A stretch of 64,000 nt of DNA from Gammaproteobacteria bacterium (GTDB lineage: Bacteria; Pseudomonadota; Gammaproteobacteria; Burkholderiales; Burkholderiaceae_C), in contig JAHJWB010000015.1 of assembly GCA_018828125.1 (NCBI GenBank), forward strand, positions 229,656-293,655, read 5' to 3'. Numbering within the stretch: position 1 is the first letter of the stretch; every line of letters starts with the position of its first letter. This document shows, piece by piece, positions 1,255-63,357 of the stretch. The translations under genes and the position numbers were made by a program. Under the pieces are notes generated by a model. The model was not told the origin of the DNA. It ran no database searches and worked only from the letters and a program-made list of their open reading frames with translations.

Positions 1255-1300
1255 TTGGCCGCTAGCGCTTATCTGGTAAGCGCAAGTAGCTATTAAATAT
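1255..1300 (+). repeat. AGCGCT-N9-AGCGCT palindromic element, copy 1
   Basis: First of 11 copies of a roughly 45-bp element. The core is an inverted AGCGCT pair separated by 9 bases, here with one mismatch in the right arm (AGCGCA). It is flanked by TTGGCC on the left and TAGCTATTAAA on the right. It lies 2 bases after the dbpA stop codon. The stem could fold in mRNA, but no T-run typical of an intrinsic terminator follows. Confidence 0.8.
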
Positions 1301-1428
1301 GTAGTGCATCGCCGTAGATCGGCTTGCGCGGCGTGGGCGGACGTCGGCAGTCCTTTTGTGGTGCGGGTCGGACTGCGCCATCGTGGGCTAAACCAGCCGA
1401 CCAAGGTTTGGGCACGATTTTTAGCCAA

Positions 1429-1475
1429 TTGGCCTCTAGCGCTTGTCCAGTAAGCGCTAGCAGCTATCAATTTTT
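1429..1475 (+). repeat. AGCGCT-N9-AGCGCT palindromic element, copy 2
   Basis: Near-consensus copy: TTGGCCTCT, then the AGCGCT/N9/AGCGCT core with interior TGTCCAGTA, then AGCAGCTATCAATTTT. It lies in the 282-bp space between dbpA and the convergent ankyrin gene, which contains two copies of the element and no gene that I can support. Confidence 0.85.
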
Positions 1476-1534
1476 GCGCATCACTAATGTTGGTCGGATT
1501 GGCGTCGCCTCACCGGGCGCCCCGCCAACAGGGG

Positions 1535-2230
1535 TCAGCGCGTCGCACCCGCAGCCTGCAGCATCTGCACCATTTCGTTGTAGCCCCGCTGGCGCGCCAG
1601 TTGCAGCGGTGTGTTCCCTTGCCGGTCTGTCAGCGCATGGCTGGCGCCGGCCTGCAGCAAAGCTTGCAACGTGGCCTGGTGGCGTGGGCCGCCGTTGCCT
1701 AGCACGATGGACTCGATGAGCGCCGTCCAGTGCAGGTTGTTTACATGGTCCAGCGGCGCACCGGCGGCAATCAGCTGGCGCACCACACCGTCGTGCCCCA
1801 GGTGGGCCGCCGCGATCAAGGCTGTGCCGTCGTAGCGGCTGGTCACCTGTTTGGCGCTGGCGCCCAGTTGCAGCAGCAGGCGCAGCGTGGCTTCGTCGTC
1901 GGCCACGGCGGCAATGGTCACGGCGTCGTAGCGGTCGTTTTCCAGCAGGTCCAAGCCCGCGCCCGCTTTGGCGAGGGCGCGGACGGCTTCGACCTGCCGG
2001 GCGAACGTGGCCACATGCAGCGGCGTGCGTCCCTGTGCGTCGCGGGTGTTCAGATCGGCCCGTGCGGCCAGCAATTTCGTCAGCGCGGGCATGTCGCCCC
2101 GTGCGGCAGCGGCGTGCAGGCCCTGGTAAGCCGCTGATTCAGCAGCCGTGGGAGGCACCTGGGCGATGGCGGGGAGGGTGCCGGTCAGCAGCGCTGCGGA
2201 CAGCGCGATTGCAAGGTTCCATGGCTTCAG
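1535..2230 (-). CDS. Exported ankyrin-repeat protein, probable CTG start
   Basis: Ankyrin-repeat protein with about five 33-residue repeats. Typical pieces are GRTPLHVATFARQVEAVRAL, DGTALIAAAHLGHDGVVRQL and GNTPLQLARQRGYNEMVQML. The first in-frame ATG (2158) would begin in the mature part. Extending the frame upstream gives a signal peptide (KPWNLAIALSAALLTG, ending AIAQ). The only plausible start for it is CTG at 2230, with a GGAGG ribosome site 5 bases before. I infer a periplasmic protein of about 231 residues. It follows the HbpS-like gene by 52 bases on the same strand. Exported ankyrin proteins of this kind are known near oxidative-stress genes; the role here is unknown. Confidence 0.75.
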   Translation of the reverse strand: MKPWNLAIALSAALLTGTLPAIAQVPPTAAESAAYQGLHAAAARGDMPALTKLLAARADLNTRDAQGRTPLHVATFARQVEAVRALAKAGAGLDLLENDRYDAVTIAAVADDEATLRLLLQLGASAKQVTSRYDGTALIAAAHLGHDGVVRQLIAAGAPLDHVNNLHWTALIESIVLGNGGPRHQATLQALLQAGASHALTDRQGNTPLQLARQRGYNEMVQMLQAAGATR

Positions 2231-2282
2231 GGGTGCCTCCGATGATGTGCGTGCGTCAGGGTGTGTTGCGTGCCGGGGGACG

Positions 2283-2777
2283 TTACTTCAACCACTCTTG
2301 CACCTTGGCGATGCCCGCCACCGCACATTGCTCGTCCAGGTGGCCGCCAGGTGCGCCGCCCACGCCCACGGCGCCGATGACTTCATTGCCCACCTTTACT
2401 GGCACGCCACCGCCCAGCAGCAGGTAGCCAGGGATGTTGACCAGGTTGGCCGCCGCGGGGTTCTTCTGCGCGCCTTCCATCATGGCCAGCGTAGTGTTCT
2501 TGGCCGATGCCGAGGTGTAGGCCTTCAGGCGGCTGGCTTCCAGCGTGTGGGGGCCTGCGTTGTCGGCGCGCTGCACGGCGCGCACGGTGCCTGCGCGGTC
2601 CACCACGGTGGCGGTCACGTTGTAGCCGTTGGCACTGCAGGTGGCCACGGTCTGGGCCGCAATCTGCGTGGCCAGGTCCAGAGAGATGTTCTTTTCGGTG
2701 CGTACACCTTCGGCGCTGGCCGCTGTGGCGATCAGGGACAGGGTGAGGGCGGCGATGGTGGCGAGGCGGTTTTGCAT
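2283..2777 (-). CDS. Secreted GlcG/HbpS-family (DUF336) protein
   Basis: A 164-residue protein with a clear signal peptide (MQNRLATIAALTLSL, cleavage after ATAASA). The mature GlcG/HbpS fold has the family glycine patterns PGYLLLGGGVPV and IGAVGVGGAPGGHLDE near the C-terminus. The ATG at 2777 is chosen because a GGAGAA site precedes it and the signal peptide starts there; a longer open frame upstream adds only noise. Streptomyces HbpS, of the same family, is an extracellular haem-binding protein that modulates a neighbouring two-component system. Here too the neighbours upstream are a response regulator and a sensor kinase on the same strand. Haem binding is inferred, not visible. Confidence 0.85.
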   Translation of the reverse strand: MQNRLATIAALTLSLIATAASAEGVRTEKNISLDLATQIAAQTVATCSANGYNVTATVVDRAGTVRAVQRADNAGPHTLEASRLKAYTSASAKNTTLAMMEGAQKNPAAANLVNIPGYLLLGGGVPVKVGNEVIGAVGVGGAPGGHLDEQCAVAGIAKVQEWLK

Positions 2778-2916
2778 GGTGTTCTCCGGTGTTTGTGACG
2801 TCGGTGCCACCCTTTGTGGCGCCGTGGGAGAACTGTAGAAATTGCCGCCGCTTTCAGCCATTCGGGCGGCTACGCGCGGGCCTCCGTAGAACTACGGAAG
2901 GCTTTTGAAGGCCAGG

Positions 2917-5096: not shown

Positions 5097-5246
5097 GCGC
5101 GGATTCTGGCATGGGGGCTTTGTGGGGCGCCTTTCAACGGTGGCGTGTTCTTGCGCCAGCGGCGCAAAGCAGGTGTTAAGGCGGCTCTTAAGCGGCTCTG
5201 GTGTAATTCCCGGCTCGGTTCATTTCTACGCTCTAATCCACCGCCC

Positions 5247-6197: not shown

Positions 6198-6661
6198 TCA
6201 GCGTATTGCAACGTGTGCGCGAGGCGCGTGTGGAGGTGGAAGGGCAGATAGTGGGCGCCATCGGCCCCGGCCTGCTGGTGCTGGTGTGCGCCGAACGGGG
6301 CGACACCGAGGCCGAGGCCGACAAGCTGCTGGCCAAGATCCTCAAGCTGCGGATTTTTTCGGACGCTGCTGGCAAGATGAACCAGAGCGTGCAGGACATC
6401 GACGGACGTGGAGCCTGCGGGGGCCTGCTGCTGGTGAGCCAGTTCACCCTGGCCGCAGACACCACGGGCGGCAACCGCCCCAGCTTTACGCAGGCGGCTG
6501 CGCCTGATGAAGGGCGGCGGCTGTATGACTATGTGGTGGCTCAGGCGCGCAAGGTGCACCCCGAGGTGGCCACGGGCCAGTTTGCTGCCGACATGCAGGT
6601 GCATCTCATCAATGACGGGCCGGTGACGATTCCGCTGCGGATGCCACCGGCGGCGGTTTGA
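6194..6661 (+). CDS. dtd: D-aminoacyl-tRNA deacylase
   Basis: A 155-residue enzyme that hydrolyses D-aminoacyl-tRNAs (and glycyl-tRNA-Ala) to keep D-amino acids out of translation. Family hallmarks are the SQFTLAAD motif and the NDGPVTIPL motif, which contains the cross-subunit Gly-cisPro pair. Length matches the family. It starts with GTG inside the stop of the CDF gene (GTGA), so the two are coupled. The stop is followed at once by a palindromic repeat. Confidence 0.95.
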
Positions 6662-6666
6662 GATTC

Positions 6667-6718
6667 AAAAACAATAGCTGCTAGCGCTTTAGGGATAAGC
6701 GCTGGGGCCTGTTTTGAC
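6667..6718 (-). repeat. AGCGCT-N9-AGCGCT palindromic element, copy 3
   Basis: Reverse-oriented copy with perfect AGCGCT arms and interior TTAGGGATA on the plus strand. The AGCTAT-containing end faces dtd and the GGCC end faces the convergent MFS gene. It fills nearly the whole space between two convergent genes, where a bidirectional stem-loop could serve in transcript termination or 3'-end stability. Confidence 0.85.
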
Positions 6719-6720
6719 CA

Positions 6721-7992
6721 TCATTTTGGGTGCGCCACCAGTGGCGACACCGGCAACACCCGGAACGCTGCTGACGCCAGCGCCAGCCAAGCGGAGATGG
6801 CCAGCATGACGGCTGTGTGAGCATCCCACCCGTAGTGCTGCGCCCAGGTGGCGACGATGCCGGTGAACCACTGCATCAACGCGACGCCCAGGAACATGGC
6901 CATGGTGTAGGCCGACAAGGCCCGGCCCGTGAGCGCAGGCGCGTAGGAGGCGCGCACATCGGCGTATTGCAGCACGCCGTAGCCTGACAGCAGCCCCATC
7001 AGCAGAATCAGCACCACGCTGGCTGCGGGATGCACGCGCAGCACCGCGAGCACGCCGAACAGCGCGGCCATCAACAGCGACGCATTGCCGATCCAGCGCC
7101 TGCGCCGGCCAGTGCCCGGGTCCAGTCGGCCTGCCAGGCCGGGCGCAAAGAGGGCGATGAGCGACAGGCCCAGCGCCACGTTGCCGCTTTCCACCAGCGA
7201 GAGGTGGTAGCGGTCCATCAGTAGCGGCGCCAGCCACAGGCCGCGCAGCGACAAAAAGGCCGCATACCCCGACATGCCCAGCACCAGGATGCCCCAGGTG
7301 TGCGGCACCGTCAGCAGGTGGCCAAAGCCGAGCAGGGCCTGGCCCCAGGTTTCGCGCTGCGCCGGGGGCGGAACCAGGGGCGCGGGTTCATGCACCCGCA
7401 GGTAAATCATCAGCCACGACAGCGCGCTCAGCACCGCCAGCACGGCGTACCCCGTGCGCCAGCCACCGCCGTGCTGCACCAGCCACGCCAGCGGCGTGCC
7501 CGTGAACAGCAGGCCCAGCCCGCCCACGCCCATGGCCACACCCGAGAGGTAGGCAAACCGATCAGCCGCAAAGTGCCGCGCAATGAACAGGGTGCAAGCC
7601 AGGAAGGCGGGCGAGCAGCCCACGCCGATCATCAGCTGGCCCGCCATGAGCGATGGGTAGCCCGGCGCCGCAGCAGAAAGCGCCGAACCCGCAATGGCCA
7701 GCGGAAAGGCAGTGAGAACGGTGCGGCGCAGACCCCACAGGTCCAGCCCCACGCCCATCAGCAACTGCGAGACGCCGAACGCGAGGCCGAACAGCCCCGC
7801 GAAGGCACCCAGCGATCCGGCCGAAAGCCCGAAGTCCGCCGTCAGGCCTTGCGCCACCATGGCGGTGGTGGTGCGAAAGGCTTGGCTGAGCGCGAAGCCG
7901 CTCAGAAGCGTCAGCAGCATGGCCCAGAGGGCGCGGGGCTGCGGACGTTCATGGCCGTTCGGGGCGGATGGGGGGGATGTATGGAGGCTCAC
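6721..7992 (-). CDS. MFS transporter
   Basis: A 423-residue major facilitator with about 12 hydrophobic segments. The loop 2-3 region reads GVGLDLWGLRRT, a divergent form of the MFS D-R motif, and a central cytoplasmic loop follows TM6. The GTG start overlaps the TSUP stop codon (GTGA), and the alpha-helical N-terminus WAMLLTLLSGFALSQAFRT follows directly. A much longer open frame upstream is only a shadow of the TSUP gene. Substrate unknown. Coupling to a TSUP anion exporter suggests, weakly, a small organic acid or sulfonate. Confidence 0.85.
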   Translation of the reverse strand: MSLHTSPPSAPNGHERPQPRALWAMLLTLLSGFALSQAFRTTTAMVAQGLTADFGLSAGSLGAFAGLFGLAFGVSQLLMGVGLDLWGLRRTVLTAFPLAIAGSALSAAAPGYPSLMAGQLMIGVGCSPAFLACTLFIARHFAADRFAYLSGVAMGVGGLGLLFTGTPLAWLVQHGGGWRTGYAVLAVLSALSWLMIYLRVHEPAPLVPPPAQRETWGQALLGFGHLLTVPHTWGILVLGMSGYAAFLSLRGLWLAPLLMDRYHLSLVESGNVALGLSLIALFAPGLAGRLDPGTGRRRRWIGNASLLMAALFGVLAVLRVHPAASVVLILLMGLLSGYGVLQYADVRASYAPALTGRALSAYTMAMFLGVALMQWFTGIVATWAQHYGWDAHTAVMLAISAWLALASAAFRVLPVSPLVAHPK

Positions 7993-17486: not shown

Positions 17487-17937
17487 CATAGGGGTCTGCA
17501 AAACCCAGCTCTTTCATGATGTCGGTCTCGTAGGCTTCCATCTCGTCGGCATCGGCGGCGCTGGTTTCGTGGTCCCAGCCCTGGGCATGCAATGCGCCGT
17601 GCACCAACATGTGTGCGTAGTGCTCTTCCAGGGTCTTGTTCTGCTCCCGGGCCTCCCGTTCGATCACGGGGGCACATAACACCAGGTCGGCCGTCACCAC
17701 GGGCTCCTGGGTGTAGTCGAAGGTGAGCACGTTGGTCGCGTAGTCCTTCTTGCGAAAGTCGCGATTGAGTTGCTGGCCTTCTTCGGCGCCCACGATGCGC
17801 ACGGTGATCTCGGCGTCGGTGGTCAGTGCGTGGCGAATCCAGCGCGTCACCTTGTGGCGCGGCAGCACAGCGCGGTGGGCTGCGGCGTCAGCATAACGGC
17901 CAAACTGCAGGGACAGAGACAGTTGATGGAGTGGCAT
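17479..17937 (-). CDS. ybeY: Endoribonuclease YbeY, rRNA maturation factor
   Basis: A 152-residue metalloendoribonuclease acting in 16S rRNA 3'-end maturation and ribosome quality control. The signature zinc-binding HGALHAQGWDH motif (three His, H3-x5-H type) is intact, preceded by NVLTFDYTQEP. It lies downstream of phoH on the same strand, the widespread phoH-ybeY order, with a palindromic repeat in the 69-base gap. Confidence 0.96.
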   Translation of the reverse strand: MPLHQLSLSLQFGRYADAAAHRAVLPRHKVTRWIRHALTTDAEITVRIVGAEEGQQLNRDFRKKDYATNVLTFDYTQEPVVTADLVLCAPVIEREAREQNKTLEEHYAHMLVHGALHAQGWDHETSAADADEMEAYETDIMKELGFADPYAK

Positions 17938-17947
17938 TTTTGGTTTT

Positions 17948-17995
17948 TTAGGCCTCTAGCGCTTTATCCATAAGCGCTAGCAGCTATCAATTTGT
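17948..17995 (+). repeat. AGCGCT-N9-AGCGCT palindromic element, copy 4
   Basis: The best consensus copy: GGCCTCT, AGCGCT, TTATCCATA, AGCGCT, AGCAGCTATCAA. It occupies the gap between phoH and ybeY, inside a presumed operon, so it is probably transcribed. Confidence 0.88.
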
Positions 17996-18006
17996 GAGTA
18001 TTCGAG

Positions 18007-22337: not shown

Positions 22338-24149
22338 TCACTGCATAACGGCGCCAGCCGAGACGCTGGTGTGCGTGGGTTCTTCGGACGCAGCCGCCTC
22401 TTCGTTCCTGGTGCTGCGTACGGCACCGGCATCCAGCACCCCCGCAACAATCAACGACTGCGCCGCGTAGTACGTTGTCAGCACCCACACCTGTGACATG
22501 GGCAGGGGCATCACAAAGCGGTTGGTCGCCAGCAGTGCATCGCTCAGCATGAAGAATCCGGCGCCAATGGCCACCAGCAGCGATGGCGTGTCGCGCAGCA
22601 CGGTGGCCCGGCCAATAGCCTGGGCGGCCATCAGCGCAATCACCAAGACATAAGCGGCCACGGGCGCGCGCAGCGCAGGCGGCAATCCGCCCGTCCACAG
22701 GAACGCGTACATGGCGACGCCGATTCCCAAGGTGGCGGCCAATGCTCCACGGTGCGGAAACCATGCTTGGCCGTTTTTGAACAGCGCCACATAAAACAGA
22801 TGTGCCACCAGAAAGCTCACCAGGCCGGGGATAAAAAAACCCTGGAACATCAGAAACACATCCCCCGCCAGCGATCCGGCCAGCGCGGCAGCAAGAAGGA
22901 TGATATTTTTTAAGCAAAATTGGCCTCTAGCGCTTAATGGATAAGCGCTAATAGCTACCAAAAGAAGAGCAACCAACATCGTCAGTGGCTTGAACAGCCA
23001 ATGCCACTGCAGAAAGCCCAAAGCGCTGGTGGCGGTGGCCAGCGCCGCGCTTTGCAGCATCAAGGCCATCAACACGGTGATACGGCCCTGCATCACCGCG
23101 CCCAGTGCCCACTGGCATACCAGCAGCACCACAAACCAGATCCCGTTGTCTGCCAGGGGCGCGCTGTCGGCCTGCCACAGGAAGGCCGCCACGCCTGCCA
23201 GCAACACCCCAAACTGCACCAGCGCAAACCACTGCACCGCACGGGACATGGGTGGGTGGTATGGCTGCATCTGCGACATGCTGAACGCTGGTTTGGGATA
23301 CCGCTCGGCGACATCCGCAGGTCGCCACCCGGGTGGCTTGACCCACACCTTGAGCTTGTCGAGCCAACTGCGCGCATGCCAGCTGTCGTGCGCCAGACCG
23401 GCGTACACCTGGGCATTGGCCCACAGAGGGTCCCAGCTGTTGAGCAAGCCGCGCGTGCCGTACACGCACCGCTCTTGGTCATCTTCGTCCTTGAAGGTGC
23501 CGAACAGGCGGTCCCACACGATCAGGATGCCGCCGTAGTTCTTGTCCAGGTACGGGTCGTTCACTGCGTGGTGCACACGGTGGTTGCTGGGGCTGCAGAA
23601 CCAGCGGTCAAACCAGCCCAGGCGCCCCACCTGCTCGGTGTGCACCCAGAACTGATAGAGCAGGTCGATGAGCGCCACCACCGCAAACACCAGCGGAGGC
23701 ACGCCCGCCAGCGCCATGGGCACATAAAAGATCCAGCCCAGAAGTGCGCCAGAGCTGGTCTGGCGCAGCGCGGTGCTCAGGTTGTAGTCCTGGCTCTGGT
23801 GGTGCACCGCGTGCGCGGCCCACAACACGGCGGACTCGTGCCCCATGCGGTGCAGCCAGTAGTAGCAAAAATCGTAGAACACCAGCGCCAGCAGCCAGCC
23901 CGGCAGGCTGGTCCAGAACGCATCGCTGCGCCACAGCGCCACATGCTCGAACACGGCGGTGTAGATGCCGATGCGCAGCAGGCGTGTGAACACCGCGCTG
24001 GTCTGGCTGAGCATTCCGAGGCTGATGCTGCTGACTGCATCGGCCAGCCGGTAGGTGTTGCGCCGGCGCTTGTAGCCAATCGCCAGTTCAAGGGCGATCA
24101 GTACAAAGAAAACGGGAGTGGCAAGGACGATGATCTGGCTGGGGCTCAT
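22338..24149 (-). CDS. Fatty acid hydroxylase/sterol desaturase fused to YhhN (lysoplasmalogenase) domain
   Basis: A 603-residue membrane protein with two domains. The N-terminal half is a di-iron fatty acid hydroxylase with histidine boxes WLHRMGHE, AAHAVHHQSQ and NHRVHHAVND, plus FWVHTEQVG, an arrangement close to alkylglycerol monooxygenase. The C-terminal 230 residues have many helices and the YhhN/TMEM86 patterns KPLTM, SLAGDVFLM and FFMLSDALLA. Both families act on ether lipids, so a plasmalogen or alkyl-glycerol cleaving enzyme is a reasonable inference. ATG at 24149 is chosen; an in-frame TTG at 24185 abuts the upstream stop. An AGCGCT element is built in frame into residues about 395-412. 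Confidence 0.85.
   Translation of the reverse strand: MSPSQIIVLATPVFFVLIALELAIGYKRRRNTYRLADAVSSISLGMLSQTSAVFTRLLRIGIYTAVFEHVALWRSDAFWTSLPGWLLALVFYDFCYYWLHRMGHESAVLWAAHAVHHQSQDYNLSTALRQTSSGALLGWIFYVPMALAGVPPLVFAVVALIDLLYQFWVHTEQVGRLGWFDRWFCSPSNHRVHHAVNDPYLDKNYGGILIVWDRLFGTFKDEDDQERCVYGTRGLLNSWDPLWANAQVYAGLAHDSWHARSWLDKLKVWVKPPGWRPADVAERYPKPAFSMSQMQPYHPPMSRAVQWFALVQFGVLLAGVAAFLWQADSAPLADNGIWFVVLLVCQWALGAVMQGRITVLMALMLQSAALATATSALGFLQWHWLFKPLTMLVALLLVAISAYPLSARGQFCLKNIILLAAALAGSLAGDVFLMFQGFFIPGLVSFLVAHLFYVALFKNGQAWFPHRGALAATLGIGVAMYAFLWTGGLPPALRAPVAAYVLVIALMAAQAIGRATVLRDTPSLLVAIGAGFFMLSDALLATNRFVMPLPMSQVWVLTTYYAAQSLIVAGVLDAGAVRSTRNEEAAASEEPTHTSVSAGAVMQ
22914..22965 (+). repeat. AGCGCT-N9-AGCGCT palindromic element, copy 5, inside a CDS
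   Basis: Perfect AGCGCT arms with interior TAATGGATA, flanked by AAAATTGGCCTCT and TAGCTACCAAA. It lies fully within the desaturase-YhhN fusion gene and is read in frame on the minus strand as VAISAYPLSARGQF. It falls in the loop after the first YhhN helix, between KPLTM and SLAGD. Confidence 0.88.
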
Positions 24150-24185
24150 GGGGGACACCAAAATGTCCACCGATTCTTGCCCCAA

Positions 24186-28191: not shown

Positions 28192-28977
28192 TCACATCAT
28201 CGAAAAATCGCGGTCAAACTTCATCAGGTGCTGGCCACCATCGACCAGCAGGGTGGTACCGGTCATCGACCGGTTTTCCAGCGCGAATTTCACGGTGGCG
28301 GCCACATCTTCAGGGGTGGACGAGCGGCCCAGCGGCGACAGCGCGTGCAACTGTGCAAACTTGTCGTCGCTCAGCATGTGGCTGGTCAGCGTGAGGCCCG
28401 GGGCCACGCCCACCACGCGCACGCGCGGCGCCAGGGCCAGTGCCAGCATGGTGCCGGCGGCTTCCAGTGCAGCCTTGGAGAGGGTGTAACTCATGAAGTC
28501 GGGGTTCTGGTTCCAGAGCTTCTGGTCCAGCAGGTTGACCACTGCGCCTTGCGCGTCGGCCTCACCCTGGGCCACCCGGTCAGCCACATGCTGGTGCAGC
28601 GCCTGGGCCAGCAGCACGGGGGCGGCGGTGTTGCTGCGCAGGTGCTTTTCGAGCGCGGCAAAACCAAAGGTGGCGGCGTTGTCATGCTCGAACAGCGAGG
28701 CGCTGTTGACCACCGCATCCAGACGGCCAAAGTGCGCCACCACGCGGGGCAACAAGCCGCGCACGGCGGCCTCATCCTCAAAATCAGCATCAAAATGGGC
28801 GCTAGCGCTTGTCAGTTGTGCGCAGGCAGCTACGGTATCGATAGCATCCTGCTCAGACGAGCGATAGTGCACCGCCACCTGCCAGCCGCCCGCCGCCAGC
28901 GCCAGCGCAATGCTGCGGCCCAGGCGCTTGGCGGCGCCGGTGACCAGAACGGTACGTGGTTGGGAATTGCGGGACAT
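28192..28977 (-). CDS. folM: SDR-family pteridine reductase (FolM/PTR1-like)
   Basis: A 261-residue short-chain dehydrogenase. The cofactor motif TGAAKRLGRSIA is the PTR1/FolM variant of TGxxxGxG, with the NADPH-favouring HYRSS following. The catalytic YTLSKAAL is present. Such enzymes reduce dihydropterins (dihydromonapterin) to tetrahydropterins. Adjacency to folB supports this. The ATG at 28977 is preferred over a TTG five codons upstream. An AGCGCT element contributes residues about 46-62 (TVAACAQLTSASAHF) just before the DADFEDEAAV segment. Confidence 0.85.
   Translation of the reverse strand: MSRNSQPRTVLVTGAAKRLGRSIALALAAGGWQVAVHYRSSEQDAIDTVAACAQLTSASAHFDADFEDEAAVRGLLPRVVAHFGRLDAVVNSASLFEHDNAATFGFAALEKHLRSNTAAPVLLAQALHQHVADRVAQGEADAQGAVVNLLDQKLWNQNPDFMSYTLSKAALEAAGTMLALALAPRVRVVGVAPGLTLTSHMLSDDKFAQLHALSPLGRSSTPEDVAATVKFALENRSMTGTTLLVDGGQHLMKFDRDFSMM
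28790..28840 (+). repeat. AGCGCT-N9-AGCGCT palindromic element, degenerate copy 6, inside folM
   Basis: A decayed copy: left flank AAAATGGGCGCT, left arm AGCGCT intact, interior TGTCAGTTG, right arm TGCGCA, then GGCAGCTACGG. It lies inside the folM coding sequence and uses the same minus-strand frame as the copies in the desaturase fusion and cca. Confidence 0.6.
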
Positions 28978-28991
28978 TTGGGTGGGAGACA

Positions 28992-30110
28992 ATGCGGGCC
29001 GTGACCCAAAGACCCGACAGTTTAACGACCGCCCTCCACCAGCACATCACCCAGGCCATTGCCGCCGAGGGTGGATGGCTGGGTTTTGACCGCTTCATGG
29101 CGCTGGCCCTGTACACGCCCGGCTTGGGCTACTACGCCAACGATTCCACCAAATTCGGCGCCATGCCCGAGTCGGGCAGCGATTTCGTGACGGCCCCCGA
29201 GATGACGCCCCTGTTCGGCCAGACCCTGGCCGCGCAGGTGGGCGATGCGCTGGCGCAGACCGGCACCGATGAGGTGTGGGAGTTCGGCGCGGGCTCCGGC
29301 GCCCTGGCGCTACAGCTGCTCGACACCCTGGGCGACCAGGTGCAGCGCTACACCATCGTCGACTTGTCGGGCAGCCTGCGTGCGCGCCAACAGGCTAAGC
29401 TGGTGGCGTACGCGCACAAGCTGCGCTGGGTGGATGCGCTGCCAGATACGCTCAGCGGCGTGGTGGTGGGCAACGAGGTGCTCGACGCCATGCCTGTGCA
29501 ACTGCTCGCCCGCCACGGCGGCCAGCAAGGCGGCGTGTGGCATGAGCGTGGCGTGGTGGTACAGGACGATGGCAGCTTTGCCTGGGCCGACCGCCCCACC
29601 GACCTGCGCCCGCCCCTCGACATCGAAGGCCCGCAGGACTACCTGACCGAAATTCACGCGCAAGGTGAAGGCTTCATGCGCATGCTGGCCGACCGGCTCA
29701 CGCGCGGCGCAGCCTTCTTGCTGGACTATGGTTTTGGCGAAGACGAGTATTACCACCCACAGCGCCACATGGGCACGGTGATGTGTCACCAGGGTCACCT
29801 GGCTGATGGCGACCCGCTGGTGGCGGTGGGGCTCAAAGACATCACCGCCCACGTCAACTTCACCGCCATGGCGCTGGCAGCGCAGGAGGCGGGCCTGAAT
29901 GTGCTGGGCTATACAACGCAGGCGCACTTTCTCATCAACTGTGGTCTGCTTCCAAAAATGGAGCAGCTACCGCAGGCGCAGCGGGCAACAGCGGCCAAAT
30001 TGATCATGGAGCACGAGATGGGCGAGCTGTTCAAGGTGCTCGCCGTGGGCGCGGGTGAGCCGTGGGAGCCGGTGGGCTTCAGCCATGGCGACCGCAGCCA
30101 CCGGCTGTAG
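28992..30110 (+). CDS. SAM-dependent methyltransferase, MidA/NDUFAF7 family
   Basis: A 372-residue protein of the family containing human NDUFAF7, an arginine methyltransferase for complex I assembly. Motifs are GGWLGFDRFMALALYTPGLG, GSDFVTAPEMTPLFGQTL, the SAM-binding VWEFGAGSGALA, NEVLDAMPV and LLDYGFGEDEYYHPQR. The start has GGGAG upstream. Its start codon lies only 14 bases from that of the divergent folM, so the two promoters must overlap neighbouring coding ends. The bacterial target is not established from sequence. Confidence 0.92.
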   Translation: MRAVTQRPDSLTTALHQHITQAIAAEGGWLGFDRFMALALYTPGLGYYANDSTKFGAMPESGSDFVTAPEMTPLFGQTLAAQVGDALAQTGTDEVWEFGAGSGALALQLLDTLGDQVQRYTIVDLSGSLRARQQAKLVAYAHKLRWVDALPDTLSGVVVGNEVLDAMPVQLLARHGGQQGGVWHERGVVVQDDGSFAWADRPTDLRPPLDIEGPQDYLTEIHAQGEGFMRMLADRLTRGAAFLLDYGFGEDEYYHPQRHMGTVMCHQGHLADGDPLVAVGLKDITAHVNFTAMALAAQEAGLNVLGYTTQAHFLINCGLLPKMEQLPQAQRATAAKLIMEHEMGELFKVLAVGAGEPWEPVGFSHGDRSHRL

Positions 30111-30120: not shown

Positions 30121-32470
<2,350 letters not shown>

Positions 32471-32542
32471 TTAGAAATTGTGATTTGTTTGCGCCGTCAT
32501 CCGGGAGGAGAAGGTAGGGGATGCCTCTGTGCATCTCCGGAG

Positions 32543-44439: not shown

Positions 44440-45690
44440 TCAGGGCGCCTCACCCTTGGCCAGCCACTGCGCCACCGCCGCCACCCGCGCCTGATGAATC
44501 AGTGCGCCCACCTGCGGGCCGCTCACACCCTTGGCCGCGGCGTGTGCGGCAATGTCGCGCGTGACCACTGACTGCACCGCAGCCAGTACGGCCGCCAAGC
44601 GGGCGCGCTGTGGGTAGGCCGATTCTTCAAACCCCAGTCGCCCGCGTGCGTCGCATTCGCAGGCCAGCAGAATGTCGGCAAAACGCTCGGGCTTGCGGAT
44701 GGCGTCGCAGCGCTCCAGCAGGCGCACCAGGGCGGCGGCCGACAGCTCGCTGCTGCGGTGGATGTGGCCGTGCTCGCGGGCCACCACATCGGCTGTCTCG
44801 CGGCAGTCCACCGGCACCCGCAGGCGCTCTGCCACATCTCTGAGCAGCTCGGCACTGCGCTCCTCGTGGCCGATGTGGCGCGGCAGCACTTCGGCAGGCG
44901 TGGTGCCCTTGCCCAGGTCGTGCGCCAGGCAGGCAAAACGCGCTGTGAGTGGCGCGTTCAACCGGGCCGACATGTCCAGCACCATCATCAGGTGCACGCC
45001 GGTGTCCACCTCAGGGTGGTACTCGGCCCGCTGGGGCACGCCCCACAGGCGCGCCACTTCGGGCAGCAGCACTTCCAGCGCACCACATTCGCGCAGCACC
45101 TCGAACATGCGGGACGGCTTTTCTTCCACCAGCCCGCGGGCCAGCTCCTGCCACACGCGCTCTGCCACCAAGTGGTCCACCTCGCCGTGTTCCACCATCT
45201 CGCGCATCAGTTGCATGGTCTCAGGCGCTACGGTGAAATCAGTGAACCGCGCCGCAAACCGCGCCACGCGCAGGATGCGCACCGGGTCTTCGCGGAAGGC
45301 GTCCGTCACATGGCGCAGCACCCGCGCCTCGATGTCACTGGCGCCAGAATATGGGTCAAATATGCCTCCAGCGCTTATTCCATAAGCGCTAGTAGCTATT
45401 GCATTGATAGTAAGATCGCGGCGCGAGAGGTCTTCTTCCAGCGTCACATCGGGCGAGCTTTCCACCACGAAGCCCCGGTAACCCCGCCCGCTCTTGCGCT
45501 CGGTGCGGGCCAGCGCGTATTCCTCGCGCGTCTCGGGGTGCAGAAACACCGGAAAGTCGCGGCCCACTGGCAGGTAGCCCAGCGCCAGCATCTGCTCGGG
45601 CGTGGCGCCCACCACCACCCAGTCGTGGTCATTCACCGGACGGCCCAGCAGCTTGTCGCGGACCGCGCCGCCCACCATGTAGATTTGCAT
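44440..45690 (-). CDS. cca: CCA-adding tRNA nucleotidyltransferase with HD domain
   Basis: A 416-residue enzyme that adds or repairs the 3' CCA of tRNAs. The nucleotidyltransferase domain starts [13 protein letters not shown] and has the metal motif NDHDW (Asp21, Asp23). [23 protein letters not shown] and [17 protein letters not shown] follow, then a C-terminal HD phosphohydrolase domain ([20 protein letters not shown]). The class II E. coli-type architecture is complete. An AGCGCT repeat is built in frame into residues about 96-111 ([13 protein letters not shown]), just after the LTINA motif. Confidence 0.96.
45357..45410 (+). repeat. AGCGCT-N9-AGCGCT palindromic element, copy 8, inside cca
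   Basis: Perfect AGCGCT arms, interior TATTCCATA, flanks ATGCCTCC and AGTAGCTATTGCATTG. It lies within cca and is read on the minus strand in the same frame as the copies in folM and the desaturase fusion. E. coli Cca has a shorter loop here between LTINALA and DPYNG. Confidence 0.88.
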
Positions 45691-50689: not shown

Positions 50690-50758
50690 AAAATAGTTTG
50701 CTATAAATAGAAGAGCTGCTAGCGCTTGATGAATAAGCGCTAGAGCCTGTTTTGATTC
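50690..50758 (-). repeat. AGCGCT-N9-AGCGCT palindromic element, copy 9
   Basis: Reverse-oriented copy with intact arms, interior TGATGAATA, and the GAGCCTGTTTTGATTCAA end facing the next gene. The AGCTAT-type flank is altered (GAAGAGCTGCT). It fills the gap between slt and the DUF4124 gene. Confidence 0.82.
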
Positions 50759-50776
50759 AATATCTGGAGGGGGGCC

Positions 50777-55581: not shown

Positions 55582-56574
55582 TCAGACCTTGGCGCGGCGC
55601 TGGCGCAGCGTGTCCACAATGACGGCGGCCACGATCACAAAGCCCGTAATGATGCGCTTGCTGGGCTCACTCGCACCGACCTGGGCCAAGCCTGCCTCCA
55701 GCACCGCGATGATCAGCACACCAAACGCCGTGTTCACCACCGAGCCGCGCCCGCCCATCAGGCTGGTGCCGCCAATCACCACGGCGGCAATCACCTGCAA
55801 CTCCATGCCGGTGCCGGCGTTGGGGTCGGCCGCTTCCAGCCGGGCCGATTGCATCAAACCCGCCAGGCCTGCCAGCAAGCCCGTCATGGCAAACACGATC
55901 ACGCGGATGGGGCGCGGGTCCACGCCCGCCAGCCGCATGGCTTCTTCATTGGTGCCAATGCCCACCACACAGCGGCCGAACACCGTGCGCGACAGCACCA
56001 GCTGCGCCACGATGACCAGCACTAAGGCGATCACAAATGCCACAGAGATGCCGCCCATCAGTGGCGCCGACAGCCACGAGATCGCATCGCCCACGTACTG
56101 CGTGCGCGAGTCGGTGACCACATACGCACTGCCGCGCACGGCTTCCAGCATGCCCAGCGACACGATGAACGACGGCAGCCGCCACGCCACTGAGATAGCG
56201 CCCGTGATGGTGCCGCACACCAGCCCCGTGGCCAGTGCCAAGGCCGCTGCAGCGGGCACCGTCCAGCCCCACTGCAGGATGGCGGCGGCCGAGGTGGCGG
56301 CGGCCAGTGCCATCACTGATCCCACCGACAGGTCGATGCCCGCGATGATGAGCACAAAGGTCATGCCCACGGCCATCACGGCCAGGGCCGGGATCTCGTT
56401 GGCGATGGTGATGAAGGTCTCGGCACTCCAGAAGTATTCGGACAGCGACGAGAACAGCGCCACCATGCCCGCCAGCACGGCCATCAGGCCCAGGTAGGTG
56501 CCCAGCTGGCTGCGCCAGACCGAGGCGGAGGAAGGCGCCGCAGCGGGCGCGGTAGATGCGGTGGGGGCGTTCAT
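55582..56574 (-). CDS. rbsC: Ribose ABC transporter permease
   Basis: A 330-residue permease with about ten hydrophobic segments. Family signatures are VLIIAGIDLSVGSVMALAAA, WRLPSFIVSLGMLEAVRGSA and the EAA-like IAAVVIGGTSLMGGRGSVVN. ATG at 56574 overlaps the rbsA stop (ATGA). It forms the membrane channel with RbsA. Confidence 0.95.
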   Translation of the reverse strand: MNAPTASTAPAAAPSSASVWRSQLGTYLGLMAVLAGMVALFSSLSEYFWSAETFITIANEIPALAVMAVGMTFVLIIAGIDLSVGSVMALAAATSAAAILQWGWTVPAAAALALATGLVCGTITGAISVAWRLPSFIVSLGMLEAVRGSAYVVTDSRTQYVGDAISWLSAPLMGGISVAFVIALVLVIVAQLVLSRTVFGRCVVGIGTNEEAMRLAGVDPRPIRVIVFAMTGLLAGLAGLMQSARLEAADPNAGTGMELQVIAAVVIGGTSLMGGRGSVVNTAFGVLIIAVLEAGLAQVGASEPSKRIITGFVIVAAVIVDTLRQRRAKV

Positions 56575-58235
56575 ACAGTGACAGGGGAAGAAGTTGGAGG
56601 GGTGGTGCTGGGACGCCCGCCGGGCTCGGAAAATGCGGCCGCCAGCAGCGATTGTTCGGACCACTCGCCGCGCTCGAACACGGCCGCCAGGCGGCCCGCG
56701 CTCATCACGCCGATGCGGTCAGCCATGGCCATGAGTTCGCGCAGGTCGGACGACACCATGAGCAGCGCGCGGCCCTCGGCGGCCATTCGGTCCAGCTCGC
56801 CGTACAGCTCGGCGCGCGCGCCCACGTCCACGCCGCGCGTGGGTTCGTCCAGCAGCAGCACGCGGCCTTCGCGGTGCAGCCAGCGGGCGAACACCACCTT
56901 TTGCTGGTTGCCGCCCGACAGTTGCCCCACGGGCTGCTCGGCGCTGCGGCAGCGGATGCCCAGCGTGCGCACAAAACCTTGCACTAGGCGGCTTTCGAGC
57001 CCACGCTGCAGCCAGCCGCCGCGCGACACGGCCGAGAGGTCGGACAGCGTGGCGTTGATGCGGATGGGTTGCGAGAGTAGTAGGCCCTGGGACTTGCGGT
57101 CTTCGGTGACCAGGCCCACGCCGGCGGCAATCGCCTGCAGTGGCGAGGCGAAACCACGGGGAATCGTGCGGGGTGTGGCATGGGAAACCGCTGTTTTTTG
57201 ATCTGCTATTATTTGTATAGCTGACTGCGCTTGTCCATCAAGCGCTAGAGCCTGTATTTGTTCAAATTCCGGGTGGAGCGTGACGCTGCCCCGGTCTGCG
57301 CGGTCAGCGCCAAACAGCAGCCGGACCAGCTCGGTGCGGCCCGACCCAACCAGCCCGGCGATGCCAAAGATCTCGCCCGCCCGCAGCTCCAGGCTCACGT
57401 CCTGCACGGCGGTGCCGCGCCCCAGGTTTTCAGCGCTCATCACCACGGGGCCGATGGGGCGGCGCGGGCGGTGGTCCAGGTCGCTCACCACGCGGCCCAC
57501 CATGCGCTGCACGAGGTCGTCCTCGCTCATACCCGCCATGGGGCGCACGTCCACCAGGCGGCCATCGCGCAGCACGGCCACGCGGTCGGCAATGCGGCGC
57601 AGCTCTTCGAGCCGGTGCGACACATAGATGATGGCCACGCCACGTGCGGTGAGGTGGGTGATCTGCTCGAACAGGTAATTGGTCTCGCGCGGCGTGAGCA
57701 TGGCCGTGGGCTCGTCGAGCACCAGGATGCGCGTGTCGTCCTGCAGGTTGCGCGCAATCTCCACCATCTGCTGCTGGCCGATGCCCAGTTGTGATACGGG
57801 CGTGGCGGGGTCGATGTTGTCGAGGCCAATCTTGGCCAGTTGCGCACGGGCGGCGGTGTGCAGCACATCGCGCTGCAACCAGCCCAGCCGGTGCGGCAGA
57901 CGGCCCATCAGCAGGTTCTCGGCCACGGTGAGCGTGGGCACCAGGCCCAGCTCCTGCATCACCATGCGCACGCCTTGGCGCTCCGCGTCGCGGCGCGAAG
58001 TGGGGGTGTAGGTTTGACCGCCCAGCACCATGCCGCCGCGCGTGGGCAACTCCAATCCGCAGAGGATCTTGGACAGCGTGCTCTTGCCCGCGCCGTTCTC
58101 CCCGGTCAGCGCCAGCACTTCGCCTGCAAACAGCTCCAGGTTCACGCCATCGAGCACGGTGGCGGTGTAGTCCTTGCCTACGGCCTGGATGGCGAGCAGG
58201 GGCGGGAACTGAGGAGCGGACGAGGGACTGGGCAT
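56571..58235 (-). CDS. rbsA: Ribose ABC transporter ATP-binding protein with an in-frame repeat insertion
   Basis: A 554-residue double-ATPase (usual length about 500). First Walker A is GENGAGKST (45-53), first signature region LGIGQQQMVEIA and Walker B LVLDEPTAML. The second half has a degenerate Walker A (GLVGSGRTE) but an intact signature LSGGNQQKVVFARWL and LLLDEPTRGVDVGA. Residues about 321-352 come from an AGCGCT element, in a place where relatives have a short loop before SPLQAIAAGVGLVTEDRKSQG. It follows rbsB after a 161-base gap with a long hairpin. Confidence 0.94.
   Translation of the reverse strand: MPSPSSAPQFPPLLAIQAVGKDYTATVLDGVNLELFAGEVLALTGENGAGKSTLSKILCGLELPTRGGMVLGGQTYTPTSRRDAERQGVRMVMQELGLVPTLTVAENLLMGRLPHRLGWLQRDVLHTAARAQLAKIGLDNIDPATPVSQLGIGQQQMVEIARNLQDDTRILVLDEPTAMLTPRETNYLFEQITHLTARGVAIIYVSHRLEELRRIADRVAVLRDGRLVDVRPMAGMSEDDLVQRMVGRVVSDLDHRPRRPIGPVVMSAENLGRGTAVQDVSLELRAGEIFGIAGLVGSGRTELVRLLFGADRADRGSVTLHPEFEQIQALALDGQAQSAIQIIADQKTAVSHATPRTIPRGFASPLQAIAAGVGLVTEDRKSQGLLLSQPIRINATLSDLSAVSRGGWLQRGLESRLVQGFVRTLGIRCRSAEQPVGQLSGGNQQKVVFARWLHREGRVLLLDEPTRGVDVGARAELYGELDRMAAEGRALLMVSSDLRELMAMADRIGVMSAGRLAAVFERGEWSEQSLLAAAFSEPGGRPSTTPPTSSPVTV
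57195..57265 (-). repeat. AGCGCT-N9-AGCGCT palindromic element, copy 10, inside rbsA
   Basis: Reverse-oriented copy: left arm TGCGCT (one mismatch), interior TGTCCATCA, right arm AGCGCT, then AGAGCCTGTATTTG. The rbsA reading frame passes through as FEQIQALALDGQAQSAIQII, adding about 30 residues. It is the only in-gene copy with the opposite orientation to its gene compared with folM, cca and the desaturase fusion. Confidence 0.82.
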
Positions 58236-58396: not shown

Positions 58397-59350
<954 letters not shown>

Positions 59351-59471
59351 GGTGTCTCCTGTTGGAATGGTGTTTCGCTGGGCGACGGAATTGGCATCGG
59401 GGACGGGGCAAATGGAATTTGCCGGTGCAAAAGCCCCCAGCCAGCTACCGGTCGCCGAGCGATGATATCGA

Positions 59472-59499
59472 AAGCAAACGTTTGCGCAAACGTTTGCTT
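59472..59499. promoter_or_regulatory. 28-bp double palindromic LacI-type operator of the rbs operon
   Basis: Two directly abutting copies of GCAAACGTTTGC (59474-59485 and 59486-59497) lie within one perfect 28-bp palindrome running from AAGC to GCTT. Each half matches the CAAACGTTTG core recognised by LacI/PurR-like repressors such as RbsR. Two dimers could bind side by side. It sits upstream of rbsB in a 407-bp space that otherwise holds only a terminator. Confidence 0.85.
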
Positions 59500-59637
59500 A
59501 TCCGTAATTACCCTCAATTCCAATGGTGGGTGGCCTGGGCGCTCGCCTGCTTTTACCGTGATCAGCCCTCTGGAAAGAGGCATTGCGGCCGTCCGAACCT
59601 CAGATTCGATCCGTTGCGTCTACTGCGGCAGGGTACG

Positions 59638-59661
59638 AAAAAAAAGAGCGCCGAAGCGCCC
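59638..59661 (-). terminator. Intrinsic terminator of fadD
   Basis: On the minus strand, about 97 bases after the fadD stop, GGGCGC-TTCG-GCGCTC forms a 6-bp stem (with one G-T pair) and a stable TTCG tetraloop, followed directly by eight T residues. This is a textbook rho-independent terminator. Confidence 0.85.
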
Positions 59662-59757
59662 TTGGATCGATGGCAGGAAATGCCGTGTGCCACATGGCGC
59701 ATTCAACATGCCACATGCCTGATCGCCGTTGCGCAGGGCTCCGGCAAGCCGACGGGA

Positions 59758-61449: not shown

Positions 61450-61532
61450 GCGCTTTTTCCTTGTGCTCGCTTAGGTGGGTTCCCCGCCGATGCGGGGTGG
61501 GCACAGATTGTGGAATCCGGGGGCGCAATGGG

Positions 61533-62273
61533 CTATCGGGCTTGTCCTAGGGTGCTCGAGAGCTGGGTCTCGCAGGTGACAGGTTCCGCGTCAAACAGTT
61601 GATCCATCAGCGCACGCTCGCGCGCCTCGATGGTGGTCAAGAACTGTTCCACTCCGCCCCGCTGGCGCGAAAGCTGGCCAAAGGTGTCGAAGCCGGCCTC
61701 CAGAAACTTCTGCAATGCGCCCATCCCGGCTGCGTGGGCCGGGCCGCGCATCATGCGCAGCATCATTCGCAGGCCGGGGGTGCGGGTCAGGCGCGCCAGG
61801 TCGGTGCCCATGGCCAGCACGCGCCGCATTTGCTCTTGCCGCGCATGGCGCTGGCCCACGGTGCGCCAGGCGGCGGTGTAGCGGGCGGCGTCGCTCGGGC
61901 TGTCGGCATGCGCCAGCCACGCACGGCCCATGTCTTGGTCCAGCTCTTCAGTCTGCGCATGCAACACCGCCAGCGCCACGGCGGTGGTCACTGCGGGCTG
62001 GGGAAACATGGTCTGCAGTGTGCCCGCGATGCGGCCAAACTGCAGGTCGCGGTCGGTGTAGTCGGTGTCGCTGTACAGCTCTTCCAGAAAGAACCGCGCT
62101 GCGGGGCCGAACGAAGGCGAGCCCATCAGGTCTGCATACGTGCCCCGAAAGCGCCGTGCCTGGAAGGTTTTGACCGTGCCCACGGCCGCGCCCAGCGCCG
62201 GGTCGCCCGTGCGGTGCAGTCGCAGCGCAGTCACGTCGGCAATGCTGTCGCGGATGGTCTGGGCGGCGTCCAT
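61533..62273 (-). CDS. Conserved hypothetical protein (FFLEELY motif)
   Basis: A 246-residue soluble, mostly helical protein. I recognise the FFLEELYSDTDYTDRDLQFG stretch as typical of a conserved proteobacterial hypothetical family but know no function. It starts at ATG 62273 with AGGA upstream. The longer open frame beyond is the shadow of the divergent lipase gene. It lies 83 bases upstream of fadD on the same strand, so a shared role in lipid metabolism is possible. Confidence 0.85.
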   Translation of the reverse strand: MDAAQTIRDSIADVTALRLHRTGDPALGAAVGTVKTFQARRFRGTYADLMGSPSFGPAARFFLEELYSDTDYTDRDLQFGRIAGTLQTMFPQPAVTTAVALAVLHAQTEELDQDMGRAWLAHADSPSDAARYTAAWRTVGQRHARQEQMRRVLAMGTDLARLTRTPGLRMMLRMMRGPAHAAGMGALQKFLEAGFDTFGQLSRQRGGVEQFLTTIEARERALMDQLFDAEPVTCETQLSSTLGQAR

Positions 62274-62402
62274 GGGGCGGGGTCCTTTCCTTGCTACCGG
62301 CAGGGGGCTGGGTGTGAGACCGCACAATGCGGCCTGCTGAATTACAACATTCGCACCCCGCCCGACGAACTGGCACATCCCTTCCTCATCAACATCATCA
62401 TC

Positions 62403-63296
62403 ATGATCGCGCGCTGGCAACGAGTTCTTCTTATCGTCATCCTGCTTGCCATGGCCGGCTGGCTGGTGTGGCAATGGCCACAGTCGCCTGTGCGGGCAGT
62501 GTGGGGAGCGCTGCTGCCGTTGGGTCTTTATATGGTCGTGATGGCGGTGGAGTTTGTACTCATGCACATCACCAACCGCGCAGATGCAGCGCCGCGCGCG
62601 CGCCGGCTGCAGGTGCTCTCGGCCTGGTGGGCGGAGGTGTGGGTGGCGCTCGTGGTGTTCTGCTGGCGCCAGCCGTTTCGCCACCAGGCGGTGCCCGACT
62701 GGCTGCCCGCCCAGCCCACCGGCCAACGCGGCGTGGTGCTGGTGCACGGCTTCATGTGCAACCGCGGTTTGTGGCTGCCGTGGTTCGCGCGCCTGCAGGG
62801 TGCGGGCCATGCGTACGTCGCGGTCAACCTGGAGCCGGTGATGGGGTCGATCGATGACTATGCTGACACCATTGAAGAGGCGGTGGCGCGGGTCACCGCA
62901 GCCACGGGCTTTGCGCCGGTGTTGCTGTGCCACAGCATGGGGGGCTTGGCGGTGCGGGCGTGGTTGCGGGTGCACCAGGCGGATGGTCGGGTGCATCGTG
63001 TGTTGACGCTGGGCACGCCGCACGGCGGTACGTGGCTGGGGCGGTTTAGCCGGGCGGTGAACGGGCGGCAGATGAGCCTGGCGGGGGAGTGGGTGGGAGC
63101 GTTGCAGAAGGCAGAGCCTGCCGGGCGGGCTGCTTTGTTTACCTGCTGGTATTCGAACTGCGACAACATTGTTTTCCCGGCGAGCACTGCCAGTTTGCCG
63201 GGGGCGGACAACCGGATTGTGGAGGGGGTGGCGCATGTGCAGATGGCGTTTGATGGGGAGGTGATGAGGGCTTGTCTGGAGGAGATTGGGCGCTGA
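62403..63296 (+). CDS. Membrane-anchored alpha/beta hydrolase (lipase-like)
   Basis: A 297-residue hydrolase with two N-terminal transmembrane helices (about 8-26 and 34-57). The oxyanion region is VLVHGFMCNRGLW, the nucleophile Ser is in LLCHSMGGLAVRAW, and the acid and His are probably in NCDNIVFP and EGVAHVQM. It resembles bacterial EstA/triacylglycerol lipase-like proteins. ATG at 62403 is chosen as the start of the first helix. It is divergent from the FFLEELY gene. Confidence 0.88.
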   Translation: MIARWQRVLLIVILLAMAGWLVWQWPQSPVRAVWGALLPLGLYMVVMAVEFVLMHITNRADAAPRARRLQVLSAWWAEVWVALVVFCWRQPFRHQAVPDWLPAQPTGQRGVVLVHGFMCNRGLWLPWFARLQGAGHAYVAVNLEPVMGSIDDYADTIEEAVARVTAATGFAPVLLCHSMGGLAVRAWLRVHQADGRVHRVLTLGTPHGGTWLGRFSRAVNGRQMSLAGEWVGALQKAEPAGRAALFTCWYSNCDNIVFPASTASLPGADNRIVEGVAHVQMAFDGEVMRACLEEIGR

Positions 63297-63307
63297 TAGT
63301 TGGGTGT

Positions 63308-63357
63308 TTTTTGGCTCTAGCGCTTGTCCATAAAGCGCTGGTAGCTATTGTTTTTAT
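63308..63357 (+). repeat. AGCGCT-N9-AGCGCT palindromic element, copy 11
   Basis: TTTTGGCTCT, AGCGCT, interior TGTCCATAA, AGCGCT, GGTAGCTATTGTTTTTATAG, starting 12 bases after the lipase stop. The last copy in the window. Confidence 0.85.

Follow-up and report, generated by a model that had tools for sequence, protein, structure and literature searches.

The 64,000-nt window analyzed here (positions 229,656 to 293,655 of the forward strand of contig JAHJWB010000015.1 in assembly GCA_018828125.1, Gammaproteobacteria bacterium) contained 11 copies of a dispersed repeat of about 69 nt, the palindromic core of which is spelled differently in different lineages of the genus. Judged from the sequences, this core may be the recognition site of a putative DNA-binding protein that co-evolves with it, a reading that we hold tentatively and at somewhat less than even confidence. 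Directly observed features comprise the unit with its two ends, its numbers of copies, the bias toward the 3′ ends of genes, the constraint on individual bases, and the dialects of the core. The host genome consists of 5.18 Mb in 23 contigs and is here termed Acidovorax-like, because the nearest named relatives of its CCA-adding protein belong to Acidovorax, including A. facilis DSM 649 (94% amino acid identity).

A preliminary description had reported 11 palindromic copies, and all of them were found where it had placed them. The pattern given there, AGCGCT-N9-AGCGCT, was exact in 7 of the 11 copies, with one mismatch in 3 and two mismatches in 1 (at 28804), and it was more frequent than in shuffled sequence, as the window contained 25 matches with at most two mismatches compared to 6.9 expected (SD 2.7), a number that was reached in 0 of 100 shuffles. 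GGCCTCT-like and AGCTAT-like flanks were likewise present and set the orientation of the copies. The fixed core of 21 nt is thus real, and was refined to AGCGCTT-N7-AAGCGCT, located in the middle of the larger unit. This refined pattern occurred exactly 284 times in the host genome and 0 times in a backward control. An oriented alignment of 103 of the 115 pattern matches in 864 kb of the genome, from which 12 matches with weak flanks were left out, revealed an AT-rich unit with sharp ends at −24 and +44 from the core start, beyond which the composition was that of the background. The consensus was AAATTTTGAGTCAAATT-GGCCTCT-AGCGCTT-ATCCATC-AAGCGCT-AGC-AGCTAT-CAAATTT-ATAGCAAT, with a family GC content of 0.416 and an information content of about 72 bits, spread over the 69 nt. 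A 69-nt matrix, built from the same 103 copies, identified 132 copies scoring at least 20 bits in the 864 kb, including all 11 in the window, and gave 0 matches on both the reversed and the complemented sequence. If the density is even, the whole genome would contain about 790 copies. The copies were at most 84% identical to one another, and these 864 kb have therefore seen no recent burst. No Rfam model matched the window at its gathering score, and no description of the element was found in a literature search, which subscription papers mostly lay beyond.

The distribution was counted with the exact canonical pattern, which misses other dialects. The core was present in 28 of 150 genomes sampled from the family and in 42 of 47 genomes of the genus, with 1 to 325 copies per genome, and no exact core in the remaining 5. 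In a sample of the class, the oriented pattern was found in 2 of 274 genomes, both from the same family, and in 0 of the 271 genomes outside it.

The position of the copies relative to genes was inferred with a gene caller made for this analysis, by which 131 of the 132 copies could be classed. Convergent genes flanked 39 of these and tandem genes 52 (at a median of 16 nt past the stop codon); a further 7 were located between divergent genes, and 33 had their midpoint inside a gene. Copies were present in 37 of 117 convergent gene pairs, 58 of 493 tandem pairs, and 7 of 118 divergent pairs, as compared to 12.1, 63.4, and 26.5 pairs expected from the lengths of the regions. No preference for orientation was seen either between tandem genes (23 same, 29 opposite) or inside genes (19 same, 14 opposite). 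Of the 27 copies that were wholly contained within genes, 21 were in the three frames that are most often open in the family, encoding peptides such as IAxSAYPxSARGQF, and four were in an antisense frame that only 6 of the 132 copies keep open.

Orthologous sites were compared in two single-contig members of the genus, G175 and G179, with 400 kb taken from each. A copy was found on both sides in 33 of the 34 rows for which both flanks were found, and in 99 of 103 rows over all orthologue comparisons; one of the four rows that appeared empty was a cut window with part of a copy inside. In 31 pairs from G175 and G179, AGCTAT and the core arms showed 0.022 and 0.065 differences per site, respectively, as compared to 0.17 for the loop, 0.20 for the left AT stretch, and 0.26 to 0.33 outside the element. 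Across the 69 positions, the rate estimated from 41 pairs was negatively correlated with the information content of the family (rho −0.65). These pairs were retained at an identity of at least 75%, which left 31 rows of 33, 4 of 13, and 6 of 17 in the three comparisons, the 2, 9, and 11 rows removed being below 75% identity, on the wrong strand, or duplicated. Individual bases have thus been conserved in orthologous pairs, in agreement with the idea of constraint after spread.

The conserved features were bases rather than base pairs. In the host genome, paired positions matched about as often as predicted from independent columns, within a few counts, and the positions of the 45 strongest pairs listed for a set of 179 copies were separated by at most 3 nt. 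In 50 strings from Polaromonas, the pair counts also agreed with independence. Compensating arms were therefore rejected as an explanation. The compensating interiors that had been suggested from the window, and with them a folded RNA or DNA as the target of selection, were not supported, since no such changes were seen within a genome. Between lineages, some arms have changed on both sides, as illustrated by T29/A39, which is A29/T39 in Polaromonas.

Most members of the genus spell the core AGCGCTT-N7-AAGCGCT. G154, G167, G177, and G183 had 61, 65, 44, and 44 exact copies of a derived spelling, AGCGCTA-N7-ATGCGC, and 5, 18, 15, and 18 canonical cores, respectively. The same spelling occurred 8 times in G151, which mixes it with 50 canonical cores, and at most 3 times in each of the other 42 genomes. 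The 37 matrix matches in the 400 kb read from G167 had the form GGCcGCa-AGCGCTA-GTgcaat-ATGCGC, with A30 in 28 and T39 in 31 copies, while T30 was found in 117 and A39 in 116 of 134 copies in the host genome. A Polaromonas genome reads GCGCA...TGCGC, with A29 in 42 and T39 in 46 of the 50 listed matches. In Rhodoferax ferrireducens L111, the copy in the cca gene reads AGCCCTT...CAGGGCT and two similar copies were located nearby, amounting to three copies only. Exact ACCGCTT-N7-AAGCGGT cores were found 8, 9, 6, and 5 times in G168, G169, G186, and G190, but this palindromic candidate dialect was considered weak, as the canonical cores numbered 11, 10, and 21 in the first three of these genomes.

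Two sites in the window were informative about the history of the spellings. The first, here called site B, is the copy at 50697 to 50765 on the minus strand (90.8 bits), just behind a lytic-transglycosylase-like gene. Among the 30 best-matching loci from the 47 genomes, which did not include the genomes without an exact core, 29 contained a copy on the strand of the window copy, the sole strand scored, with full scores of 18 to 96; the exception was G184, in which the contig ends at this place. The arms were canonical or nearly so in about half of the loci. The other loci read ACCGCTT in G168, G169, G186, and G188, ACCGATT in G172, and TGCGCGC in G159, G178, and G181; in G151, G154, G167, and G177, the left arm varied and the right side read ATG[CA]GC. 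The spellings followed a tree of the neighboring gene, with 7 changes for six groups compared to 13.3 after shuffling, and 0 of 200 shuffles reached 7. In this test the labels were taken from site B itself, with G184 canonical by default, and the tree was rooted at its midpoint and gave weak support (54/21) to the three-genome derived group.

The second site, here called the ABC site, is the copy at 57202 to 57270 on the minus strand (79.2 bits), which lies in sense and in frame within a gene for an ABC-transporter ATPase (56571 to 58235, minus strand). At this site, G154, G167, G177, and G183 all read AGCGCTA with T39. Outside the core, the copy in G167 was 0.65 to 0.83 identical to four canonical orthologues, whereas its identity to the 37 paralogues in the 400 kb read was at most 0.63. 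The corresponding values for the G167 copy at site B, where the core was respelled in part only (C30, G31, T39), were 0.65 to 0.76 for canonical orthologues and at most 0.61 for paralogues, such that at neither site did any of the 37 paralogues match the closeness of any orthologue. When the core arms were compared, between 27 and 36 of the 37 paralogues equalled or surpassed the orthologues in closeness. The mean arm identities were 0.77 and 0.72 to the paralogues compared to 0.73 and 0.69 to the canonical copies, which hardly separates the spellings because they differ at few arm positions. Furthermore, a search with one flank placed 7 copies of G167 in parts of G175, G179, and G000. In 5 of the 7 cases the relative contained a copy on the same strand, and at all five of these shared places G167 had A30 and T39, whereas T30 and A39 prevailed in the relatives. 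These comparisons show that the core has been changed in place, fully at one site, partly at a second, and elsewhere by position only. It was also noted that the ABC-site copy of G188 has the derived spelling, although the genome of G188 is canonical (69 versus 1 cores); it is possible that this gene was horizontally acquired.

We suggest the following scenario. The family would first have spread by insertion of the whole 69-nt unit. A putative protein would bind the inverted half-sites on double-stranded DNA, and the protein of each lineage would then pull hundreds of sites to its own spelling, either by selection or by biased recombination. The absence of pair covariation within a genome is as expected if the bases are read individually. 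Since bases rather than pairs are kept, the arms differ from lineage to lineage with GCGC and AGCTAT mostly constant, and sites persist but are respelled, the data point to a sequence-reading factor acting in trans, or to an equivalent recombination bias.

Several observations weigh against this scenario. The rates lean toward conservation because pairs less than 75% identical were left out, and the rates outside the element include shifts due to indels. The derived dialect is an imperfect inverted repeat, in which 5 of 7 arm pairs match. At site B, the exact derived core was found in no dialect genome, and ACCGCTT was present in G085, G185, and G188 despite 82, 90, and 69 canonical cores in these genomes. 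At a third site (G167:13792), 5 of 36 paralogues tied with or were closer than the orthologue. Among the G167 copies placed by their flanks, 2 of the 5 shared places belong to a stretch with several matching spots in the relatives, copy 154268 lacked a counterpart at the corresponding position of both G175 and G179, and the flank match of another of the seven was weak. Finally, the correlation between the canonical copy number and the score at the ABC site (rho 0.69, n = 24) takes no account of descent and is partly circular because the matrix is canonical.

The nearest known behavior is that of uptake-sequence dialects, as described in PMC3630211, and we make this comparison by analogy, claiming no membership. 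In that account, the DNA uptake sequences (DUS) of the Neisseriaceae have one spelling per lineage along the phylogeny and a part that is invariant in all dialects. The repeat could by analogy be a DNA-uptake signal, such that competent cells would take up DNA with the core spelling of their own lineage and recombination would shift every site toward the preference of the receptor; we regard this as possible, though not probable. It would fit the lineage dialects with nearly invariant parts, the in-place switching, the location at 3′ ends and the inverted arrangement, the presence of some copies in genes, and the lack of an exact core in 5 of the 47 genomes. It would also fit the match of the consensus to only 2 of 72,556 plasmid records (from Diaphorobacter and Acidovorax) and to 0 of 50,697 phage records at an E-value of 1e-5, a search with low sensitivity for copies that have diverged from the consensus. 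In some ACCGCTT/AAGCGGT cores from G168, G169, G186, and G190 we observed ACAAGCGGT, which is an Apl-type uptake sequence of the Pasteurellaceae according to PMC3630211, an overlap that may be due to chance. However, the unit of 69 nt and about 72 bits is far beyond a 12-mer DUS, with approximately one copy per 6.5 kb, and in the IMG/VR viral contigs we identified 42 stretches (L207 to L248) with an exact oriented core and 55 matrix matches. Nor did the literature search return any paper that joins the term "uptake sequence" with the Comamonadaceae.

In further comparison with the account in PMC3630211, the repeat resembles the Neisseriaceae DUS in having very many copies, often as inverted pairs near terminators and also within genes, and resembles the uptake signal sequences (USS) of the Pasteurellaceae in its GC core and in having subtypes by lineage. 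It differs from the DUS in its length (69 nt as compared to 10 to 12 nt) and in the likely insertion of whole units; among the features of DUS and USS, over-representation with lineage dialects was found, whereas a short motif of about 9 to 12 nt was not. The core differs in most dialects from that of the USS, which is a single unit, not palindromic, and belongs to another class. The Pasteurellaceae USS has AT-rich flanks, as does the repeat. We know of no earlier uptake-sequence-like system in the Burkholderiales.

Alternatively, the repeat may be an ordinary family similar to miniature inverted-repeat transposable elements (MITEs) or repetitive extragenic palindromic (REP) sequences, in which successive waves of insertion, each with a core of its own, are followed by decay, so that the dialects represent the ages of the waves. 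We consider this improbable as the full explanation, although spread by insertion, which had been suggested previously, is itself probable for this dispersed family, since empty alleles were found at two sites, both in genes. At the ABC site, a copy was present in 24 of the 29 genus loci compared and absent from G157, G163, G166, G170, and G192; the comparison excluded the partial locus of G184, and among the matches listed the remaining genomes had none of full length. The distance between the flanks was 142 to 145 nt in 13 of the 24 genomes with a copy and 73 to 76 nt in 4 of the 5 without. The remaining empty genome had 186 nt and the copy-bearing genomes ranged from 115 to 154 nt, and the linker therefore varies anyway. 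A clearer gap was seen in coding sequence of Polaromonas (L075, L080, and L097), with about 66 nt that were absent from 24 other loci, although the copy in L097 scored only 21.4 bits and those in L075 and L080 were below 15 bits. The G167 copy lacking a counterpart in G175 and G179 also fits successive insertions, as does a copy (L016:2148-2216, 73.8 bits) that overlaps the 3′ end of the single Y1/RAYT-like gene in the host genome.

On the other hand, the absence of recent copies, the constraint on some of the bases, and the orthologous flanks retained by the dialect copies at the ABC site and site B argue against waves of insertion. Nor was a consistent signal of a target site duplication seen, the best of 1,344 combinations of offset and length having 4 matches compared to 0.44 expected. 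A search of the 864 kb for an autonomous parent with the same ends recovered 6 lone right halves but no left ones, and a split autonomous parent was rejected for this lack of left halves. No transposase acting in trans, as suggested in the preliminary description, was identified, although such an agent may exist. The PF01797 domain was found in 44 of the 47 genomes, including all five without an exact core, and IS200/RAYT was rejected as a present driver, as the presence of the gene shows no link to the copy number. No copy was located within 2.5 kb of the RAYT-like genes in G175 and G179, nor near that in G167, where one side covered just 310 nt. As side observations, the Y1 transposase family had 37 matches in G194, mostly with equal scores, perhaps reflecting a recent IS200-like burst, and four nearly identical Polaromonas copies in G471:C5:726262-733839, the last three at steps of 1335 nt, perhaps represent a tandem gene array.

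REP and REPIN sequences associated with RAYT are hairpin repeats that are located at the 3′ ends of genes in hundreds of copies and confined to the chromosome, all of which is similar to the repeat described here. However, a relationship of this type is not what the occurrence of a RAYT-like gene irrespective of copy number would lead us to expect, and to our knowledge in-place switching of the core is no property of REP or REPIN sequences. According to PMC10969869, the Rickettsia palindromic elements (RPE) are also palindromic and inserted in frame in genes, with a repeated peptide, but they are about 150 bp long, whereas our repeat is mostly intergenic, with 33 of 132 copies in genes; the likeness is drawn from their descriptions. 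Likewise, the BRE elements, as described in PMC3110155, are betaproteobacterial, mostly intergenic with some copies in genes, and include Comamonadaceae. They measure 75 to 91 bp in Bordetella, with a mean GC content of 69% and tandem arrays, whereas the present repeat is 69 nt long with 42% GC and mostly single, a separation that is again made by description and not by sequence comparison.

It is also conceivable, but quite unlikely, that short-tract gene conversion from breaks at hairpins homogenizes the core and can flip the loop, in which case a binding protein would be unneeded. The concerted core with individual flanks is consistent with this, and both 7-nt loops, in the center and to the right, occurred in both orientations. 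Center loops of the reverse type were found in 40 of the 132 copies compared to 17.6 in column shuffles (the highest of 500 being 26), and right loops of the reverse type in 37 of 132 compared to 20.8. The held-out log likelihoods (lnL) of the flipped, single, and free two-profile models were −708.6, −771.2, and −704.8 for the center loop and −720.8, −775.7, and −725.9 for the right loop. The gain of the flipped profile was thus 63 and 55 lnL units, respectively, as compared to at most 5 units in seven control windows. However, gains of 17 to 51 units were also obtained for a left AAA/TTT block and for right windows out of register, which the free two-profile model fitted better. Moreover, 0 of 41 sister loops were closer in the flipped form, and the flips are therefore old or rare; frequent ongoing flipping was rejected on the same grounds. 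The ABC-site loop of G175 and G179 looked flipped in relation to relatives. AGCTAT, the slowest part, lies outside the core, and stems of nine base pairs are short for cruciforms.

Finally, a 3′-end hairpin acting at the RNA level, as a stabilizer, attenuator, or terminator of the upstream transcript, would agree with the 3′-end bias and with the folding of the consensus as single-stranded DNA into three hairpins (z −3.2), but is very unlikely given the indifference to orientation, the lack of covariation, the absence of a T tract directly after the consensus stem, and the equal frequency, in convergent regions that contain the element (4 of 34) and those that lack it (8 of 62), of other terminator-like hairpins, which are not replaced by it and for which reason an intrinsic terminator was rejected.

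In the window, independent gene calls agreed with the earlier count of seven intergenic copies and four in genes. Copies 1 and 2 are located on the plus strand in the same intergenic stretch behind a gene for a DbpA-type helicase, the first at 1240 to 1308 (87.4 bits; core at 1264 to 1284 with one mismatch) and the second 174 nt further on at 1414 to 1482 (71.2 bits; exact core). Copy 3 (6659 to 6727, minus strand, 70.0 bits) lies between convergent genes for a D-aminoacyl-tRNA deacylase and a transporter-like protein, copy 4 (17934 to 18002, plus strand, 83.4 bits) between phoH-like and ybeY genes, copy 7 (32412 to 32480, minus strand, 82.3 bits) in the intergenic region behind a gene for a LysR-type regulator, and copy 11 (63295 to 63363, plus strand, 73.7 bits) is also intergenic; site B and the ABC site are copies 9 and 10. 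Copy 5 (22905 to 22973, plus strand, 92.3 bits) is placed antisense and in frame in a fatty-acid hydroxylase/YhhN fusion gene (22338 to 24185, minus strand), with the peptide VALLLVAISAYPLSARGQFCLKN. Copy 6 (28780 to 28848, plus strand, 57.4 bits) is antisense in a gene for an SDR-family oxidoreductase (28192 to 28992, minus strand) and has the decayed core with two mismatches mentioned above.

Copy 8 (45346 to 45414, plus strand, 84.3 bits) is antisense and in frame within cca, the gene for the tRNA CCA-adding enzyme (44440 to 45690, minus strand; 632 bits to the NCBIfam CCA addition/repair protein). The cca site is old: in 81 rows, it scored at least 20 bits in 25, 10 to 20 bits in 8, and lower in 48, and the copies of at least 20 bits came from Acidovorax, Comamonas, Giesbergeria, Rhodoferax, and Polaromonas. 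Compared to short alleles, the net gain in length was 36 nt, and not 69. In the window and the cca genes of 80 named loci, the end of the repeat codes for a conserved LTIN(A/S)IA motif, for which the element-bearing lineages use AT-rich codons at LTINAIA (ACT ATC AAT ... ATA GC).

Taken together, the interpretation given in the preliminary description was partly supported, and the reading proposed here is that of a core recognized by a co-evolving putative protein. If the rewriting in place is true, each lineage would need a trans-acting factor, or a recombination bias, able to shift copies across the whole genome, and such rewriting would reach even copies inside genes such as cca. The repeat could, although we think it unlikely, be a self-recognition signal of the Comamonadaceae, in which a receptor and the dialect of the core would evolve together, with rewriting in place at hundreds of sites, marking the DNA of each species as its own. 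G151, with its two spellings, and the genomes of the genus without an exact core provide a comparative set for finding the factor, and such rewriting would make it testable how dispersed sites switch specificity together.

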